A stretch of DNA of 64,000 nucleotides, from assembly GCF_005877055.1 (NCBI RefSeq), contig NZ_CP039424.1:1-64000 (forward strand), in the 5' to 3' direction. The DNA comes from Citricoccus sp. SGAir0253 (GTDB lineage Bacteria; Actinomycetota; Actinomycetes; Actinomycetales; Micrococcaceae). A program made the translations under genes and the position numbers. The notes under the pieces are model-generated. The model did no database searches, was not told the DNA's origin, and saw only the letters and a list, made by a program, of their open reading frames with translations. Positions 39,332 through 47,083 of the stretch are shown in pieces. Within the stretch, counting starts at the first letter, position 1; the number at the start of each line of letters is the position of its first letter.

Positions 39332-41152
39332 TCAGGCGATGACGGCGTCCACGATCGCCTTGGCCTCGGCCTGCACCTGCGCCAGGTGCTCGGCCGAGAC
39401 GAAGGACTCCGCGTAGATCTTGTACACGTCCTCGGTGCCGGAGGGCCGCGCGGCGAACCAGGCGTTCTCCGTGGTGACCTTCAGCCCGCCGATGGCCGCC
39501 CCGTTGCCGGGGGCCTCGGTCATCCGGGCGGTGATCGGCTCGCCGGCCAGGGTGTCCGCGGTGACGTCCGCCGGGGACATCCGCTTGAGCCGGGCCTTCT
39601 GCTCCGCGGTGGCCGGCGCGTCGACGCGCGCGTACACCGGGTCGCCGTACCGGGCCACCAGTTCGGCGTAGTACTCCGAGGGGGACTTCCCCGTCACCGC
39701 GCGGATCTCCGCGGCCAGCAGGCACAGCAGGATGCCGTCCTTGTCCGTGGACCACGGCGAGCCGTCGAGGCACACGAAGGACGCCCCGGCCGACTCCTCG
39801 CCGCCGAAAACCCCCGTGCCGTCCAGCAGCCCGGGCACGAACCACTTGAAGCCCACCGGCACCTCCACGAGGTCCCGGCCCAGCCCCGCGGCCACCCGGT
39901 CGATCATCGAGGAGGAGACGAGGGTCTTCCCGACGCCGGCCCCGGCCGGCCAGCCGTGCCGGTGGCGGTAGAGGTAGTCGATCGCCACGGACAGGAAGTG
40001 GTTCGGGTTCATCAGCCCGCCGTCCGGGGTGACGATGCCGTGCCGGTCGGCGTCGGCGTCGTTGCCCGTGGCGATGTCGAAGGGCGTCCCGGCCGCGGGC
40101 GCCCCCGCGGCGTCCGGCCTCGGGGCACCCGCCGGTGCCGCGCCGTCGGGCCGCATCCGGCCGATGAGCGAGGCCATGGCGTGGGGGGAGGAGCAGTCCA
40201 TCCGGATCTTCCCGTCCCAGTCCAGGGTCATGAACGGCCACCGGGGATCGACCTGGGGGTTCACCACGGTCAGGTCCAGGCCGTGGCGCTCGCCGATCTC
40301 GCCCCAGTAGCCCACGGACGCCCCGCCCATGGGATCGGCGCCGATGCGCACGCCGGCCGCGCGGATGGCGTCCAGGTCGATGACCCTCGGCAGGTCCGAG
40401 ACGTAGCGGTCCAGGAAGTCGAACGTGCCCAGGGCCGGGTGCCCCTCGACCTCGGCCGCCGGGACGCGCCTCACCCCGGCCAGGCCGTCCGCGAGCAGCT
40501 CGTTGGCGCGGGCGGCGATCCAGTCGGTCGCGTCCGTGTCCGCCGGGCCGCCGTGGGGCGGGTTGTACTTGAACCCGCCGTCGGCCGGGGGGTTGTGGGA
40601 GGGCGTGATGACGATGCCGTCCGCCAGCCCGGGGGCGGGAACGCCCGCCTCGCTGCCCGCCGGGGCCGGCGCCGTGTCCGGGGCCGCTGCGGGCTCGGTG
40701 GGCCCGGCGGGATCGGTGGCGGCACCGCCCAGCCGGCCCGCGTTGAGCACCAGGATCGCGTGCGAGACCGCCGGGGTGGGCGTGTAGCCGCCGCGCGAGT
40801 CGACCAGCGTGCGCACCCCGTTGCCGAGCAGCACCTCGAGCGCGGTGTCCTGCGCCGGCCCGGACAGGGCGTGGGTGTCCCGGCCGATCAGCAGCGGGCC
40901 GGTGATGCCCTGGGCCGCGCGGTACTCCACGATCGCCTGCGTGATCGCCGCGATGTGGTCCTCGTTGAAGGACGTCCGCAGCGAGGACCCGCGGTGGCCG
41001 GAGGTGCCGAAGGAGACCCGCTGCGCCGGGTCAGCGGGGTCCGGGTGGCGCTCGGTGTAGGCCGCCAGCAGGGCGTCCAGGTCGACGAGGTCTTCGGGGA
41101 GGGCCACGGTGCCCGCCCGCTCGGCCGCGGGCGCAGGAGTCTGAGCGTTCAT
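39332..41152 (-). CDS. pgm: Phosphoglucomutase
   Basis: Interconverts glucose-1- and glucose-6-phosphate, feeding UDP-glucose supply. About 606 residues, longer than the usual 545-560 because of two Ala/Pro/Gly insertions (around 135-160 and 310-330). Motifs: [11 protein letters not shown] near the N-terminus, phosphoserine loop [12 protein letters not shown], metal site [10 protein letters not shown], sugar-binding [10 protein letters not shown] and phosphate-binding [16 protein letters not shown] 41152 is chosen; a longer open frame upstream is non-coding in character. UDP-glucose made through this route would serve both SqdB and GpgS in this window. Confidence 0.94.
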
Positions 41153-41472
41153 GGGACCACTGTTCCACGAACGGGAAACGCCGGGGTAGCAGGGCGGTGA
41201 ACATGACCGAGGACGGCGGCCCGTCCCGCCGGCGCCCGCGGGCGACTGGTTGAATGGGGGACGGGTTTGCCGCGGTGGCCGCACAGGTGCCACCGGCCGC
41301 ACGAGGGTCGTGACCCCGGCGCGCACCGACGGGCGGACGCCGGGCGGCTTCGCGGGGTCCATCCGGCGCCTCGCCCCGGACGAGGACTGACCCCACCGAC
41401 CGGGATCCCGCCGAGCGGGACGCGGACGGTGCCGGGGCTGTGGACGAACGGTGCGCCGTCCCGTCCGGCGCC
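41153..41472. other. Gene-free stretch between pgm and the DUF4190 gene
   Basis: 320 nt without a convincing gene. A 26-codon GTG frame at 41310-41390 exists but has no promoter or ribosome site. A single relaxed DnaA-like box (TGTGGACGA) lies near 41440. I see nothing else. Confidence 0.5.
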
Positions 41473-41478
41473 TAGACT
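41473..41478 (+). promoter_or_regulatory. -10 of a likely leaderless mRNA
   Basis: TAGACT followed by 6 nt and ATG 41485. Confidence 0.65.
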
Positions 41479-41484
41479 GGGGCC

Positions 41485-41997
41485 ATGGCCGACCCGAACG
41501 CACGCGACCGGGGTGGACAGGGGCACGACCCGGACCGGTACCGCCCGTTCGACGACCCCCACCACCCCTCCTGGTACACGGACGCCGGCGCCCGCCCGGA
41601 CGCCGGCCCGGCACCGGGCGCGTCCCCGCAGGACCCCTACGCCGACCAGCCGTACGCCGGACTCCCGGGCGGTCCGGGGCCGTACCCGCTCCACGGCGGA
41701 TACCCCGGCGCCGGCGGCCCCGGGGGCCGGGCGACCTGGACGCCCCGGCCGGTGGACGGGCGCCGGACCACGGCGCTGGGACTCACGGCCCTGGTCCTGG
41801 GCATCTCCGGGGTGGCGACCTTCGGCACGCTGCTGGTCCCGCAGCTGCTGGCCATCGTGTTCGGCCACCTGAGCCTGCGCCGGGAGCCGGACGCGCGCGG
41901 CCTCGCGCTCGCGGGGCTCATCATGGGGTACGTCGTCAGCGGGCTGTGGGTGCTGATGATCCTGGGCCTGGTCGCCTTCGGGATCCTCCTGGCCTAG
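41485..41997 (+). CDS. DUF4190-type membrane protein
   Basis: 170-residue protein with a Pro/Gly/Asp/Tyr-rich disordered cytoplasmic half (about 1-90) and two membrane helices (about 95-120 and 143-168) separated by [23 protein letters not shown], here the DUF4190 signature (GHLSLRR, GLALAG). Small proteins of this type are common in actinobacteria and have no known biochemical function. The stop TAG shares a CTAG tetranucleotide with the stop of the converging phosphatase gene. Confidence 0.88.
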
Positions 41998-42704
41998 GGC
42001 GTTCCCGGACCCGGGACGGCGCCCCGGTGCGGCGGCATCTCGTCCGCCAGCGCCGAGCCTGCGTGGGGCACGGTGCGGGCGTTGTAGTCCGCGATCTGCC
42101 ACCCCCGCTCGGCGTGTTCCTCGAGCACCGTCCAGGCGCAGTTCTCGAGGGGGGCGAGCATGTTCCGCAACCGGAAGGGGGCCTCGAAGAAGGCCAGGAC
42201 GCCGCTGCGCAACGCCGCCCCGTGGCCCACGAGGACGGCCGTCGACCCGGGTCCCAGTGCCCCGGCGGCATCGCGCAGCACGGCCGTCATCCGCGCCTCG
42301 ACCTCCGCCGGAAGCTCGGCACCGGGCACCCGGTAGTCGGCCTCGGCGAGGAACCTCGCGTAGACCTCGGGGTGGCTGCGGCGGAACTCGGCGAACGTGG
42401 TCCCCTGGCGGATGCCGACGTGGTACTCGCGCAGCCGGGCATCCTCGACCACCTCCAGGCCGGTGAGCGCCGCCAGTTCGCGCGCGGTGCCGCGCGCCCG
42501 CTGGAGGTCACTGGACCAGATGAAGGCGGGGGCCAGGGTGGCCAGTGCCCGGGCGGCCCGCCGCGCCTGCTCGCGGCCGACCGGGTCGAGGGGGATGTCG
42601 GCGTGCCCCTGGGCCCGGTCCTGGACGTTCCACTCCGTGCGGCCGTGGCGCCACAGCACCAGTCGGCGCCGGTCCGCCCGGAGGGGTCCTGGGGCGTGGT
42701 GCAT
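41994..42704 (-). CDS. Histidine phosphatase, probable glucosyl-3-phosphoglycerate phosphatase
   Basis: Phosphoglycerate-mutase-like phosphatase of 236 residues. The phosphohistidine is H20 in LVLWRHGRTEWN, and the second histidine is in VLVGHGAALRSG. Other motifs: QGHADIPLDPVGREQA, WSSDLQRARGTA, RLREYHVG. The pattern, including the aromatic C-terminal part (NCAWTVLEEH, WQIADYNA), resembles mycobacterial GpgP. Because it is divergent from gpgS, dephosphorylation of glucosyl-3-phosphoglycerate to glucosylglycerate is the best inference. A general sugar or cobalamin-type phosphatase is the alternative. ATG at 42704. Confidence 0.85.
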   Translation of the reverse strand: MHHAPGPLRADRRRLVLWRHGRTEWNVQDRAQGHADIPLDPVGREQARRAARALATLAPAFIWSSDLQRARGTARELAALTGLEVVEDARLREYHVGIRQGTTFAEFRRSHPEVYARFLAEADYRVPGAELPAEVEARMTAVLRDAAGALGPGSTAVLVGHGAALRSGVLAFFEAPFRLRNMLAPLENCAWTVLEEHAERGWQIADYNARTVPHAGSALADEMPPHRGAVPGPGTP

Positions 42705-42743
42705 CCGTTCGTCCTGTCTCCTCGTCCGGTGGTCCTCGGATCG

Positions 42744-42749
42744 ATCCTA
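42744..42749 (-). promoter_or_regulatory. Candidate -10 for the gpgP-like gene
   Basis: The minus strand reads TAGGAT, about 40 nt upstream of the ATG at 42704. Confidence 0.5.
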
Positions 42750-42848
42750 GGGGTCACCCCCTCCTGCTCCGCGTCCCGGACCCCGGGGCCGACCGCCACC
42801 GGGCCCCTCGCCACGGACGAGCCCCTTCCCTCGGGCGGGTGGGCTCGG

Positions 42849-42854
42849 TACTGT
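42849..42854 (+). promoter_or_regulatory. Candidate -10 for the gpgS operon
   Basis: TACTGT, about 55 nt upstream of the gpgS start; no clear -35. Confidence 0.4.
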
Positions 42855-42910
42855 GCGGGCACCTGCAGTTCCCCCGGCGGGAGGGGAGCCCACCGTCGGA
42901 GGAGGTCATG

Positions 42911-43879
42911 ATGCGACAGGACGTGAGCGACTGGTTCGCCGCCCGCAGCCACCGTGCGGGCGAGTGGTCACCGCAGGACCTGCTGGAGGCCAAGGGGGAC
43001 TGCACGATCAGCGTGGTGCTGCCGGCCCGCAACGAGGCGAGGACCGTCGGCCAGATCGTGGGCGCCCTGCGGGCGGAGCTCATGGAGGCCGTGCCCCTGG
43101 TCGACGAGCTGGTCGTGGTCGACTCCGACTCCGACGACGACACGGCCGAGGTCGCGCGCGCGGCCGGTGCGCAGGTGTTCCGCCAGGACGGCATCCTGCC
43201 GGGGCACGGCAACGTCCCCGGCAAGGGCGAGGCCCTGTGGAAGTCCCTGGCGGTGACGTCCGGGGACGTGGTGGCGTTCATCGACTCCGACCTGAGGGAC
43301 TTCGAGACGGCCTTCGCCGTCGGGTTGCTCGGGCCGCTGCTGGGCGATCCGGCGGTCCAGTTCGTCAAGGGCTGCTACGACCGCCCGCTCCACGACGGGC
43401 AGACGGTCCACCCGGCCGGCGGCGGACGGGTGACCGAGCTCGTCGCCCGCCCGCTGCTGAACCTGTTCTGGCCCCGGCTGGCGGGCTTCGTCCAGCCGCT
43501 GGCCGGGGAGTACGCGGGACGCCGGGCCCTGCTGGAGGCGATCCCGTTCGTCTCCGGGTACGGCGTGGAGATCGCCATGCTGATCGACGTCCTGGAGGCG
43601 GTCGGCCTGGACGCCATGGCCCAGGTGGACCTGGGCGTGCGCACCCACCGGAACTCCTCCGACGCGGCCCTGGCCCGGATGGCCGCCCAGATCCAGCTCA
43701 CGGTGCACGCCCGCCTGTGGGGGGAGGGGTCCATGGCCGAGGACTCCGCGGACCTGACCCAGTTCATGCGCCGCGGGGACCGGTTCATCGCCGAGTCCCA
43801 CGAGATCGCGGTCCGGGAACGCCCGCCCATGGCCGAGATCCCCGAGTACGCCCCCGCTCCGGCCGAACGGGTGGCATGA
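42911..43879 (+). CDS. gpgS: Glucosyl-3-phosphoglycerate synthase
   Basis: GT81-family (GT-A fold) enzyme joining glucose from a nucleotide donor to 3-phosphoglycerate, the first step to glucosylglycerate and, in mycobacteria, methylglucose lipopolysaccharides. The 322 residues match GpgS length. Motifs: SVVLPARNEARTVGQIV, VVDSDSDDDTAEVA, the metal-binding VAFIDSDLRDF, GKGEALWKS, and YGVEIAMLIDV with QVDLGVRTHRNSS. Tandem ATGs lie at 42908 and 42911; the second is 5 nt from GGAGGAGG and is preferred. First gene of a four-gene operon with 4-nt overlaps. Confidence 0.93.
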   Translation: MRQDVSDWFAARSHRAGEWSPQDLLEAKGDCTISVVLPARNEARTVGQIVGALRAELMEAVPLVDELVVVDSDSDDDTAEVARAAGAQVFRQDGILPGHGNVPGKGEALWKSLAVTSGDVVAFIDSDLRDFETAFAVGLLGPLLGDPAVQFVKGCYDRPLHDGQTVHPAGGGRVTELVARPLLNLFWPRLAGFVQPLAGEYAGRRALLEAIPFVSGYGVEIAMLIDVLEAVGLDAMAQVDLGVRTHRNSSDAALARMAAQIQLTVHARLWGEGSMAEDSADLTQFMRRGDRFIAESHEIAVRERPPMAEIPEYAPAPAERVA

Positions 43880-45015
43880 GCGGCCTGCGCGTCCTCGTCA
43901 ACGCCGGCCCCTGGCTCCCCGTCCCGCCGCAGGGCTACGGGGGGATCGAGACGGTGGTGGCCACGCTCGTCCCGGAGCTCCGCCGGGCGGGCGCGCACGT
44001 CACCCTGGCTACCGTGGGCCCCTCCACGCTCGAGGCCGACGACCACCTGCGGGTGCTGGACGAGCCGGCCCTCCCCTCCATCGCGATGCCCTACAACCGG
44101 GTCTCCGGCATCGCCCACGCCCACATGCAGGGCATCGTCGAGGCGTTGCGGGACGGGGGCCGGTGGGACGTGGTCCACGACCACCTGGAGGTCGTGGGCC
44201 CCTCCGTGCTGGGGGCCATGGGGCGGTCGGCGCCGCCGACGCTGCAGACCCTGCACTGGGACCTGCGCAAGCACCCGGAGTTCTACTCCCGCTTCCGCGG
44301 ACACGGCCGGGTGTGCTTCGCCGCCGTCTCCGCCTCCCAGCTCGAGCGGGCGCCGCGGAACCTGCGGGACCAGACGCTCGGGGTCGTGCCCCTGGCGGCC
44401 CCCGCGGGCACGGAGGTGGACGTGGCCCCGGGGGACCACGCCCTGGTGCTGGCCCGCATCACCGCGGACAAGGGCCAGGACCTGGCCGCCCGTGCCTGCC
44501 GCCGGGCGGGGGTGCCGCTGGTGCTGGCCGGACCGGTGGCCGGCGTCGGGGACCCGGCGGAACTCGAGCGCCGGCTGGCGGACGGCGACGAGGCCCTCAC
44601 CGGCCACCCGGACGTGCGGTACTGGCTGGAGGCGGTCCGGCCGCTGGTGGACGGGACGGCGGTGCGGTGGATCGGCGGCGTCGCGGGCGAGGAGAAGGAG
44701 CGGGTCCTGCGCTCGGCCCGCGTCCTGCTGGCGCCGAACCGGTGGGCCGAGCCGGGTGCCACCGGCGTCGTCGAGGCCCTGTCCCGGGGGGTGCCGGTGG
44801 TCGGGACGCCCCTGGGCGTGTTGCCCTCGCTCGTGCAGGACGGGCGCACGGGCTTCCTCGCCGCCGACGAGGACGGGCTGGCCGCCGCGCTGGAACGCAC
44901 CGGCGAGCTCGACCCCCAGGCCTGCCGGGACGCCGCCCGCCAGTGGACGCCGGCCGGGATGGCCCGTCGGTACCTGGACCTGTACGAGCGGCTCCTGGAG
45001 GCGAACCGGCCATGA
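43876..45015 (+). CDS. Family 4 glycosyltransferase in the gpgS operon
   Basis: GT-B glycosyltransferase, 379 residues. The N-terminal acceptor domain begins LRVLVNAGPWLPVPPQGYGGIETVV. The C-terminal donor domain has LVLARITADKGQDLAARA and NRWAEPGATGVVEALSRGVPVVGTP, the GT4 nucleotide-sugar signature with a conserved Glu. It starts in an ATGA overlap with gpgS, so it probably acts on the GpgS product or a related carrier, for example to extend glucosyl(phospho)glycerate. This is inference from context; acceptor and donor are unknown. Confidence 0.88.
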   Translation: MSGLRVLVNAGPWLPVPPQGYGGIETVVATLVPELRRAGAHVTLATVGPSTLEADDHLRVLDEPALPSIAMPYNRVSGIAHAHMQGIVEALRDGGRWDVVHDHLEVVGPSVLGAMGRSAPPTLQTLHWDLRKHPEFYSRFRGHGRVCFAAVSASQLERAPRNLRDQTLGVVPLAAPAGTEVDVAPGDHALVLARITADKGQDLAARACRRAGVPLVLAGPVAGVGDPAELERRLADGDEALTGHPDVRYWLEAVRPLVDGTAVRWIGGVAGEEKERVLRSARVLLAPNRWAEPGATGVVEALSRGVPVVGTPLGVLPSLVQDGRTGFLAADEDGLAAALERTGELDPQACRDAARQWTPAGMARRYLDLYERLLEANRP

Positions 45016-45989
45016 CCGTCCGCATCGCCCTGGTCGGGGCCGGCTCGGTGGGCCGGCGCCACGTCGACGTGCTGCACCGCCTGGGCGGCGCCCGCGTCGT
45101 GAGCGTCACGGACGCGCACGCGCCCGCCGCCGAGGCGCTCGCGTCCGAGCTCGGGGCCGCGGCCTTCGCCGACGCCGAGGAGGCCCTCGACGCCGTGGCG
45201 GTGGACGCCGTCTACGTCTGCGTTCCCCCGTTCGCCCACGGCCCGGCCGAGCACGCCGCCCTGGACCGCGGCAGGCCGCTGTTCGTGGAGAAGCCCGTGG
45301 GCCTGGGCCTGGAGGTGGCCGAGCAGGTCGCGGCCCGGGTGGAGGCCACCGGCGTGGTCACGGGCACGGGGTACCACTGGCGCTGCCTGGACACGGCCCG
45401 GCGGGCCCGGCGGCTGCTGGAGGACGCGCCGCCGCTGCTGGCCAACGGGTACTGGCTGGACAAGCGCCCCCCGGTGCCGTGGTGGGGACGGACCGACCGC
45501 TCCGGCGGGCAGATCATCGAGCAGGCCACGCACGTGCTCGACACCGCCCGGTACCTCCTGGGCGAGGTCGAGGAGGTCTACGCCGCCGGCGTGAACGTCC
45601 CGCCGGCGGACGCGGACGACGCCTGGGGTGACGTCGACGACGCCACGGCGACCACCCTCCGCTTCCGGTCCGGGGCCGTGGCGACCCTGGCCGCCACCTC
45701 CGCGCTGCCGGGCCGTCACCGGGCCGCCCTGCACGTGGTCAGCCGCGGGCGCTACCTCGAGGTCTCCGAGGAGTCGCTGACCGTCCATGCCGGGATCGAG
45801 CGGCACGAGCACGTCCGCAGCGAGGACCCGCGGCTCGTGGTGGACCGGGAGTTCCTCGAGGCCGTGCGCGGGGAACGCGAGTCCACGCGGGTGCCCTACG
45901 GCGAGGCCCTGCGCACCCACCGCCTCGCCTGCGCCATCGCCGAGTCGGCCCGGACCGGTGTCCCCGTGCGGTTGGGACTGCGGGCGTGA
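45012..45989 (+). CDS. Gfo/Idh/MocA family oxidoreductase
   Basis: NAD(P)-dependent sugar or cyclitol dehydrogenase, 325 residues. The Rossmann site is VALVGAGSVGRRHVDVL-like (IALVGAGSVGRRH near residue 5), the nicotinamide-binding EKP motif is in LFVEKPVG, and the C-terminal alpha/beta domain has GGQIIEQATHVLDTARYLLG with the catalytic-region histidine. Coupled by ATGA to the preceding glycosyltransferase and by GTGA to the following dehydrogenase. Substrate unknown; context suggests a sugar, glycerate glycoside or nucleotide sugar. Confidence 0.9.
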   Translation: MTVRIALVGAGSVGRRHVDVLHRLGGARVVSVTDAHAPAAEALASELGAAAFADAEEALDAVAVDAVYVCVPPFAHGPAEHAALDRGRPLFVEKPVGLGLEVAEQVAARVEATGVVTGTGYHWRCLDTARRARRLLEDAPPLLANGYWLDKRPPVPWWGRTDRSGGQIIEQATHVLDTARYLLGEVEEVYAAGVNVPPADADDAWGDVDDATATTLRFRSGAVATLAATSALPGRHRAALHVVSRGRYLEVSEESLTVHAGIERHEHVRSEDPRLVVDREFLEAVRGERESTRVPYGEALRTHRLACAIAESARTGVPVRLGLRA

Positions 45990-47083
45990 GCACGCGCCGC
46001 AACCTCATCGTCCCGGCCCGGGGGCGGATCGAGATCGTCGACGAGGAGGTCCCGGCGGTCCCGGAGGGTGGCCTGCTGCTCGAGACGGTCGCCACCGGCC
46101 TGTCCGCCGGCACGGAGCTCGCCTTCGTCAAGGGCGACCATCCCGGCCTGCACTCACGGCTCGACCCGGAGCTGGGCCTGTTCCACCGCGGCGTGCCCGA
46201 GCAGGGCTACCCGGTGCGCCGGCTCGGCTACATGGAGGTCGCCCGCGTGGTGCGGTCGTGCACGCCCGCCTTCCGGGACGGTGACGTCCTGGCCGCCGCC
46301 TATGGCCACGCGACCGCGCACGTGGCGGACCCCGTGACGGAGCACCTCGTGCCGCTGCCCGGGGACCTCGACCCGCTGCTGGGCGTGTTCGTGGCCCACT
46401 TCGGGCCGATCTGCGCCAACGGGCTGCTGCACGCCGCCGCGGACGCCGGGCCGGTGACGGCCCTCGGGGACGGGGTGGCGGGGCGGCTCGTGCTCGTCAC
46501 GGGAGCGGGCCCGATCGGCCTGCTCACCGCCCTGTTCGCACGCTTCCTCGGGGCCCGGGAGGTGGCCGTGGCCGACGCCGACCCGCGGCGCCGCGCCCTG
46601 GCGGAGCGGCTCGGCTTCCTGCCGCTGGACCTGGAGGACGACCCGGGGCGGACGCTGAAGACCCGGTGGCGGCACGGAACGGGCGACCACGGGGCGGACG
46701 TGGTGTTCCAGTGCCGCGGCAAGCCCCGGGCCCTGCAGGCGGCGCTGCGCTCGGTGCGGCCGCAGGGCACCGTGGTGGACCTGGCGTTCTATACCGAGGG
46801 AGCCGACGCCGTGCGGCTGGGGGAGGAGTTCCACCACAACGGCCTGAGCCTGCGGTGCGCCCAGATCGGGCGGGTGCCGCGGGGGCTGGCCCACGACTGG
46901 GACCGGCACCGGCTCTCGGCCGAGACCCTCCGGCTGCTGGATGCCCACGCGCCCGAGGTGCGCGAGCACCTCATCACGGACGTGGAGGACTTCGAGGAGG
47001 CACCCGCGCTCATGGGGGAGGTCGCGGCGCGGCGGCGGCACGTGCTCACCGCCGTCTTCCTCACCGGGGCGGGGAGCCGGTGA
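45986..47083 (+). CDS. Atypical zinc-binding-type MDR dehydrogenase
   Basis: Medium-chain dehydrogenase/reductase family protein, 365 residues. The nucleotide site is VLVTGAGPIGLLTALFARFLGA, here seen as the GAGPIGLL core. In the catalytic half the usual zinc-ligand motif GxCGTD is replaced by TGLSAGTEL, and the GHE motif by GYMEVARVV, so the catalytic zinc is probably missing. The same SAGTEL form occurs in a poorly studied MDR group found with Gfo/Idh proteins and glycosyltransferases. GTG start overlaps the previous stop. The 3' end overlaps the converging amidase gene by 23 nt. Confidence 0.85.
   Translation: MSTRRNLIVPARGRIEIVDEEVPAVPEGGLLLETVATGLSAGTELAFVKGDHPGLHSRLDPELGLFHRGVPEQGYPVRRLGYMEVARVVRSCTPAFRDGDVLAAAYGHATAHVADPVTEHLVPLPGDLDPLLGVFVAHFGPICANGLLHAAADAGPVTALGDGVAGRLVLVTGAGPIGLLTALFARFLGAREVAVADADPRRRALAERLGFLPLDLEDDPGRTLKTRWRHGTGDHGADVVFQCRGKPRALQAALRSVRPQGTVVDLAFYTEGADAVRLGEEFHHNGLSLRCAQIGRVPRGLAHDWDRHRLSAETLRLLDAHAPEVREHLITDVEDFEEAPALMGEVAARRRHVLTAVFLTGAGSR

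Follow-up and report, generated by a model that had tools for sequence, protein, structure and literature searches.

A GpgS-based gene cassette in Citricoccus sp. SGAir0253 and other actinobacteria as a candidate route to a glucosylglycerate-derived glycoside

Glucosylglycerate, a stress solute and polymer starter, is produced by GpgS and GpgP in mycobacteria and some other bacteria. In the pathways leading to mannosylglucosylglycerate (MggA/MggB/MggS) and diglucosylglycerate, the GpgS step is followed by a second glycosyltransferase, while the inositol route of Thermotoga uses IolG, IolM and IolO. Here, we compare with these systems a block of five genes found in the first 64,000 nucleotides (the window) of contig NZ_CP039424.1 from Citricoccus sp. 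SGAir0253 (Micrococcaceae; assembly GCF_005877055.1). Four of them encode GpgS, a GT4 glycosyltransferase, a Gfo/Idh/MocA oxidoreductase (Gfo) and a medium-chain dehydrogenase (MDR); the fifth, divergently oriented, encodes a histidine phosphatase (HisP).

The block resembles the GpgS/GpgP pathway in its first enzyme, recognised by a curated model, and in its phosphatase, for which GpgP is the best solved relative. It differs in that its GpgS belongs to a separate lineage and has GT4, Gfo and MDR as partners in 73 out of 80 loci (here and below, the best 80, in named genomes, of 565 relatives). A second transferase beside GpgS also recalls the mannosylglucosylglycerate and diglucosylglycerate pathways, compared here by description rather than by sequence, but two further oxidoreductases are present in our locus. 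With the Thermotoga route it has in common a Gfo, MDR and epimerase trio, although all three score below the respective family cut-offs and the cassette MDR lacks zinc ligands. Mannosylglucosylglycerate occurs in Rhodopirellula (PMC3694870), and that paper contains none of the gene terms sought. No account of a GpgS-GT4-Gfo-MDR cluster was found among the titles and abstract beginnings of the open-licence literature searched.

Sequence comparison indicates that the cassette is a mobile functional unit and widely conserved, as judged from the adjacency of the four genes, their correlated distances, Gfo-MDR fusions, a distinct GpgS lineage and near-empty sites in relatives. We scanned genome contigs with three MDR orthologues, retrieving at least 594 pattern matches and the 565 relatives, and counted locus protein matches at E≤1e-10. 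MDR was present in all 80 loci, Gfo in 78, GT4 in 77, GpgS in 73 and HisP in 9. The initial annotation, which had proposed a GpgS-based unit and possibly a new glucosylglycerate-derived route, would have been abandoned by its own terms if the four genes were not conserved together outside this strain. They lie adjacent in 73 loci, which rules out chance or strain-specific neighbours. Co-occurrence thus extends far beyond the strain for GpgS, GT4, Gfo and MDR, and the phosphatase shares the cassette here and in nine of the loci only. Carriers include Micromonosporaceae, Streptosporangiaceae, Geodermatophilaceae, Nocardioidaceae, Micrococcaceae and other families.

Three arrangements account for the 73 full four-gene loci: GT4-GpgS divergent from Gfo-MDR (54 loci), a single operon (15) and a convergent layout (4). 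HisP is divergent from the four-gene operon in 9 of the 15 operon loci, with a gap of 155-260 nt to gpgS, and one of the other six (L084) ends just upstream of gpgS. Among the seven loci without GpgS, two end just upstream of MDR (L120 and L147) and one lies at a contig end (L114). The remaining four are real absences, in Amycolatopsis (L093), Mycobacterium sp. (L132), Pseudonocardia (L133) and a metagenome-assembled genome (MAG) labelled Methylococcaceae (L140); the first three carry GpgS elsewhere in the genome. The contig of the MAG (CADDYU010000037.1) holds a Gfo-MDR pair of actinobacterial appearance (46% and 56% identity) with neither GT4 nor GpgS, and may reflect a binning error.

In a phylum-wide sample of 396 genomes, MDR (E≤1e-60) was detected in six, all of them among the 194 genomes with GpgS (E≤1e-50). 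The hand-reckoned probability of this overlap arising by chance is approximately 0.013, with three of the six belonging to one family and the own genome counted among the six. In the 1.5 kb seen of the five new loci, Gfo lies beside MDR in every case and GT4 in four. For three of the six genomes (G435, G450 and G464), GpgS was recorded on a different contig.

The four proteins also appear to have evolved together. Across 74 sets (the 73 loci and the window), the pairwise distances of GpgS, GT4, Gfo and MDR are correlated (Mantel r 0.89-0.93, a value to which shared species history contributes), and none of 500 permutations reached values as high. In three loci, two from Arthrobacter (L074 and L075) and one from Pseudonocardia (L133), Gfo and MDR are fused into a single reading frame of 739, 739 and 737 aa, respectively. 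Because the two are paired in 78 loci and sometimes fused, we suggest that they act on consecutive steps of one substrate. We also built a GpgS tree with 33 cluster rows (32 selected among the 73 loci, plus the window) and 33 stand-alone rows from searches of relatives' genomes. It requires 2 label changes, compared to 22.4 in shuffles, and sets the cluster GpgS apart from the stand-alone type of Mycobacterium, Pseudonocardia and Amycolatopsis. The lone stand-alone row on the cluster side is one of two GpgS proteins of Amycolatopsis, whose cluster itself lacks GpgS. This tree indicates that cluster GpgS is a pathway-specific lineage.

The distribution among close relatives is sparse. In 59 sampled relatives (own genome included), the MDR orthologue occurs in the Citricoccus genome alone, the others containing generic MDRs save for a 40% match in one genome (G049). 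GpgS (E≤1e-25) is present in 5 of the 59, with no other case in the same genus or family. Outside that sample, the cluster is found in the Micrococcaceae Kocuria (L072 and L073) and Arthrobacter (L074-L076, L078 and L079), where GpgS sits in the cluster. Within 396 genomes of the order, MDR (E≤1e-18) was retrieved from 13, three of them close (own, 71% and 56%), and GpgS (E≤1e-40) from 36. The other ten MDRs, at approximately 40% identity, were initially considered possible orthologues but were not counted as part of the pathway: 11 loci of this group show none of the other four proteins (E≤1e-3), and 10 of the 11 are nearer to MDR2, a dehydrogenase of the neighbouring island described below (50-60% identity, three aligned).

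At the DNA level, Kocuria dechangensis (L072) and Kocuria sp. RL58 (L073) resemble the window from HisP to MDR only, at approximately 80-82% identity, and not in the flanks. The flanking genes, identified by eye, encode a small membrane protein (DUF4190) and an amidase. In seven other genomes of the genus these two genes lie 6, 6, 16, 27, 27, 72 and 613 nt apart with no cassette between them, and neither the MDR orthologue nor GpgS was found in any of the seven. The relative with the 613-nt gap (L199) has the lowest amidase identity of the set. Given these near-empty sites, approximately 5.1 kb containing all five genes, HisP included, either entered this genome as one piece or disappeared from the others. 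Base composition offers no hint of transfer (GC content 0.759 in the cassette, 0.758 and 0.755 in the flanks). On balance, we regard it as an even call that the five genes make up a self-contained biosynthetic cassette that moves horizontally and yields a soluble glycoside derived from glucosylglycerate.

With 434 bits, GpgS clears the cut-off (262) of the NCBIfam equivalog model NF010496, and its segments, including FIDSDL and GGGRVTELVARPLL, align with the solved GpgS structures 7p5l, 3ckj and 3e25. It is the single GpgS match in its own genome (E≤1e-20), and on this family-level evidence it would join UDP-glucose to 3-phosphoglycerate. HisP contains the Pfam domain PF00300 (His_Phos_1, 165.6 bits). 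Its best solved relatives are the glucosyl-3-phosphoglycerate phosphatases GpgP 6s2q and 4pz9, at 89 bits, and its RHG, RLRE and HG segments align to 6s2q; none of the NCBIfam models listed scored above its cut-off.

For GT4, the best solved relative in profile searches was tll1591 of Thermosynechococcus (TeGSS; 7fg9/8x3q), at 190 bits. An AlphaFold2 model (pLDDT 95) likewise had tll1591 as its best fold match, with 26-27% identity. TeGSS is described as an alpha-1,2-glucosyltransferase acting on sucrose, its catalytic residues are Tyr18 and Arg179, and tll1591 neighbours a sucrose-phosphate synthase gene (PMC9909042). Once the numbering of the deposited chain (+3) is taken into account, Trp10, Tyr18, Arg179, Lys184 and Trp254 of TeGSS correspond to W13, Y21, R194, K199 and W290 of GT4, so that the catalytic Tyr and Arg are kept; all five residues are invariant in 44 sequences (invariance was assessed on chosen subsets: 45 sequences for MDR, 44 for GT4 and 37 for Gfo). 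Unlike tll1591, the GT4 gene has gpgS as its neighbour, and its acceptor is presumably glucosylglycerate. As few GT4 enzymes have solved structures, the similarity to TeGSS is a lead rather than an assignment. The idea, already put forward in the initial annotation, that GT4 extends the GpgS product gains by analogy from a nearest solved relative that lengthens a small alpha-glucoside. A second TeGSS-like GT4 is encoded at approximately 2.476 Mb of the same genome (L046:7751-8956), beside a biotin-carboxylase-like gene (by eye); it shares 37-38% identity with the GT4 of the cassette across two pieces.

The two oxidoreductases have only generic or distant matches to named families, all below cut-off. 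Gfo combines PF01408 with C-terminal domains, and K94 and H174, which we take to be the catalytic Lys and His of the Gfo/Idh/MocA superfamily, are invariant in 37 out of 37 sequences. Its best NCBIfam name is iolG (120.6 bits against a cut-off of 355), which falls short of IolG membership, while the weak names of MDR include IolM (42.6 bits against 450). MDR matches PF00107 and, under the cut-off, PF16912, with no match to an N-terminal alcohol dehydrogenase (ADH) domain. Its zinc positions are all replaced: SAGTEL, GYM and GP stand where three of four comparison MDRs have CGTD/CGSD, GHE and EP, and the fourth comparison protein also lacks these motifs. S40, G42, T43, Y82, M83 and G140 are invariant in the 45 orthologues. 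The MDR AlphaFold2 model (pLDDT 92) adopts an ADH/TDH fold, with low confidence at and around residues 281-284 and at the C-terminus, and the 50 Foldseek matches listed are generic folds of this type. Nothing was drawn from the position of the GEEFHHN loop in the model, as the loop is of low confidence. The loss of the usual zinc-ligand motif noted in the initial annotation is therefore real, but the motif is shared by a wider zinc-free MDR subfamily, so SAGTEL does not by itself signal the non-standard chemistry that was proposed from it.

In 25 of the 80 loci, the unit adjoins an island encoding a GH63 hydrolase, a TIM-barrel epimerase, a second zinc-free MDR (MDR2), a sugar-binding protein, two permeases and a ROK regulator, the names of the binding protein, permeases and regulator being assigned partly by eye. 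Carriers include Nonomuraea, Sphaerisporangium, Spongiactinospora, Streptosporangium, Rhodococcus rhodnii and Kibdelosporangium, among others. The profile of the island GH63 scores 346 bits against the Thermus mannosylglycerate hydrolase (MgH) 2z07, and 280 and 275 bits against chains of the M. hassiacum glucosylglycerate hydrolase (MhGgH). The MhGgH study names residues that contact glucose and glycerate and catalytic residues, including Asp182/Glu419 (PMC6608630). After correction for the +2 offset in the numbering of the deposited chain, Y36, W40, W42, D43, Y88, F89, Q115, W177, G180, D182, R216, Y222, Y375, W376, W381, E419 and W436 are invariant in 15 out of 15 aligned island sequences (of the 25). 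The island GH63 thus retains both catalytic residues and the glycerate subsite of these hydrolases. It differs from them in scoring 299.7 bits against the GgH equivalog NF047898 (cut-off 550; one sequence scored, from L090), and for that reason we call it no more than glycosylglycerate-hydrolase-like. MhGgH Q434 is replaced by Phe, as in 2z07; this change was dropped as a sign of a modified sugar, since Phe is also found in Thermus MgH and in the deposited MhGgH chain 6g3n.

The epimerase of the island is similar to IolO (105 bits against a cut-off of 300). Proteins of the MDR2 kind are also encoded beside sugar ABC transporter genes (L045 and L062-L070), partly with a ROK regulator or an epimerase, and in one case (L064) with a GH36-like and a Gfo gene as neighbours, identified by eye. 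These loci may represent a wider sugar-breakdown module. Two other recurrent neighbours were discarded: an ORF (X49) antisense to the MDR2 and epimerase genes, which is an artefact, and ABC ATPases (cluster 15) that look like unrelated transporters. Rhodococcus rhodnii (L107) and Kibdelosporangium aridum (L113), which belong to different families, have a near-identical region with the same gene order (GpgS branch tips of 0.019 and 0.017; GH63 92%), suggesting either a recent transfer or contamination of one assembly.

All five ORFs of the block are intact between positions 41994 and 47083 of the window. The gene layout given by the initial annotation, four genes joined by 4-nt overlaps and divergent from a histidine phosphatase, is confirmed, the overlaps being ATGA at 43876-43879 (GpgS/GT4), ATGA at 45012-45015 (GT4/Gfo) and GTGA at 45986-45989 (Gfo/MDR). 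We place the gpgS start at an ATG at 42908, whereas the initial annotation used a second one at 42911. A phosphoglucomutase-like gene (by eye) on the minus strand at 39332-41614, near the cassette, could feed UDP-glucose synthesis.

Features of the cassette in the window, with coordinates, strand and basis of assignment
Feature	Coordinates	Strand	Basis
Histidine phosphatase (HisP), GpgP-like; glucosyl-3-phosphoglycerate phosphatase expected	41994..42704	-	PF00300; best solved relatives GpgP
Divergent intergenic region, 203 nt; presumed two-way promoter	42705..42907	.	Sequence; gap of 155-260 nt in the nine HisP loci
gpgS, glucosyl-3-phosphoglycerate synthase	42908..43879	+	NF010496; sole match in genome
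GT4 retaining glycosyltransferase, TeGSS-like	43876..45015	+	Pfam GT4/GT1 domains; best solved relative by sequence and fold
Gfo/Idh/MocA oxidoreductase	45012..45989	+	PF01408 and C-terminal domains; invariant K94, H174
Zinc-free medium-chain dehydrogenase (MDR), SAGTEL / GEEFHHN subfamily; GTG start	45986..47083	+	PF00107; no zinc ligands

The link of this pathway to glycosylglycerate is well supported, given the curated GpgS match and the separate line of evidence from GH63; the product and the order of its last three steps are inferred. In the proposed route, GpgS would join UDP-glucose to 3-phosphoglycerate and the histidine phosphatase, judging from its best solved relative and the cassette boundary, would remove the phosphate to yield 2-O-alpha-glucosyl-D-glycerate. 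GT4 would then attach another hexose; by analogy with the action of TeGSS on sucrose, alpha-1,2-linked glucose donated by UDP-glucose is the likeliest. Gfo may oxidise a ring hydroxyl to a ketone, which the zinc-free MDR could reduce from the other face, giving a net epimerisation via the keto intermediate; alternatively, MDR could oxidise a neighbouring carbon in a double oxidation. The product is therefore most likely a lengthened, oxidised or epimerised glucosylglycerate, for which its compound class suggests a role as a compatible solute or carbon store. In the 25 loci with the island, the ABC transporter, GH63, sugar epimerase and paralogous MDR would re-import the compound and degrade it. 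That the product is a small soluble glycoside is indicated by the separation of cluster GpgS from the stand-alone type and by the glycosylglycerate-type GH63. More specifically, and only tentatively, we propose an undescribed, widespread actinobacterial pathway to a modified di-glycosyl glycerate, in which the Gfo/zinc-free MDR redox pair acts on a ring carbon of alpha-glucosyl-extended glucosylglycerate, with an uptake/hydrolysis island in some carriers.

Several observations weigh against this proposal or parts of it. Among solved structures, GpgS matches 3f1y best; this chain is labelled mannosyl-3-phosphoglycerate synthase, and its 276.6 bits exceed those of the GpgS chains (7p5l and 4y6n, 259 bits or less), so a mannosyl version of the pathway is possible. 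The low identity between GT4 and TeGSS over the fold makes alpha-1,2-glucose a guess. HisP was not found in the remaining 71 loci, even at E≤1e-3, and a few of these are truncated by contig ends; genomes without it must use another phosphatase, none other having been looked for there. Two genomes with GT4-Gfo-MDR or Gfo-MDR, one 76% complete (G217) and one a MAG (G423), show no GpgS match. Similarly, GH63 (E≤1e-15) was not found in 9 of 16 cluster-bearing genomes searched, the window genome among them, so the recycling part is not universal. In three of the seven genomes with a match, the GH63 is island-type by similarity (48-62%) and lies outside the locus seen. Finally, the presence of MDR2 kin in other sugar operons means that this kind of MDR is not tied to glycerate.

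Other pathways have to be weighed against the same data. Gfo and MDR could act before GT4, as an IolG/IolM-like pair that makes a keto- or epimerised sugar or a cyclitol serving as GT4 donor precursor or acceptor, with GpgS supplying the other half. The names iolG and IolM among the matches, together with the IolO-like island epimerase, point this way, but all three matches lie far below their cut-offs, and neither a nucleotidyl-transferase nor an inositol-phosphate synthase is present among the nine recurrent neighbour clusters examined (the other clusters are unannotated); we consider this order of steps unlikely, if still deserving attention. Rather less probable is that GpgS and the phosphatase produce glucosylglycerate as a solute and nothing more, GT4-Gfo-MDR being a separate glycoside route that is just inherited alongside them. 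Such independence would fit the location of GpgS elsewhere in the genome in Amycolatopsis, Mycobacterium and Pseudonocardia, and on another contig in half of the MDR-positive genomes of the phylum sample. It is at odds with an adjacency maintained through three arrangements in 73 loci, with the cluster-specific GpgS lineage and with a glycosylglycerate-type GH63 joined to the unit in 25 loci.

Glucosylglycerate is an early intermediate of the mycobacterial methylglucose lipopolysaccharide (PMC4555173), and the cassette product might accordingly prime a glycolipid or a similar polymer. We judge this improbable: the nine neighbour clusters include no acyl- or methyltransferase (the others being unannotated), and cluster GpgS is separate from the clade with the stand-alone Mycobacterium copy, Amycolatopsis having both types. 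The lipid head group and polysaccharide primer suggested in the initial annotation have thus gained no support. Equally slim is the prospect of a secondary-metabolite pathway in which a pseudo-oligosaccharide is made for export rather than as a solute. The patchy distribution and the mobility of the cassette would suit it, but no exporter or resistance gene occurs in the nine clusters, save the unrelated-looking ABC ATPase cluster, and in 25 loci the unit is partnered by a hydrolase and an ABC system of the import type.

A conserved four-enzyme unit building on glucosylglycerate would imply an unrecognised metabolite in many actinobacteria and, if the proposed pathway is true, would assign a function to a zinc-free MDR subfamily. 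The cassette is small and self-contained, and it has relatives lacking it, which makes the proposal directly testable.

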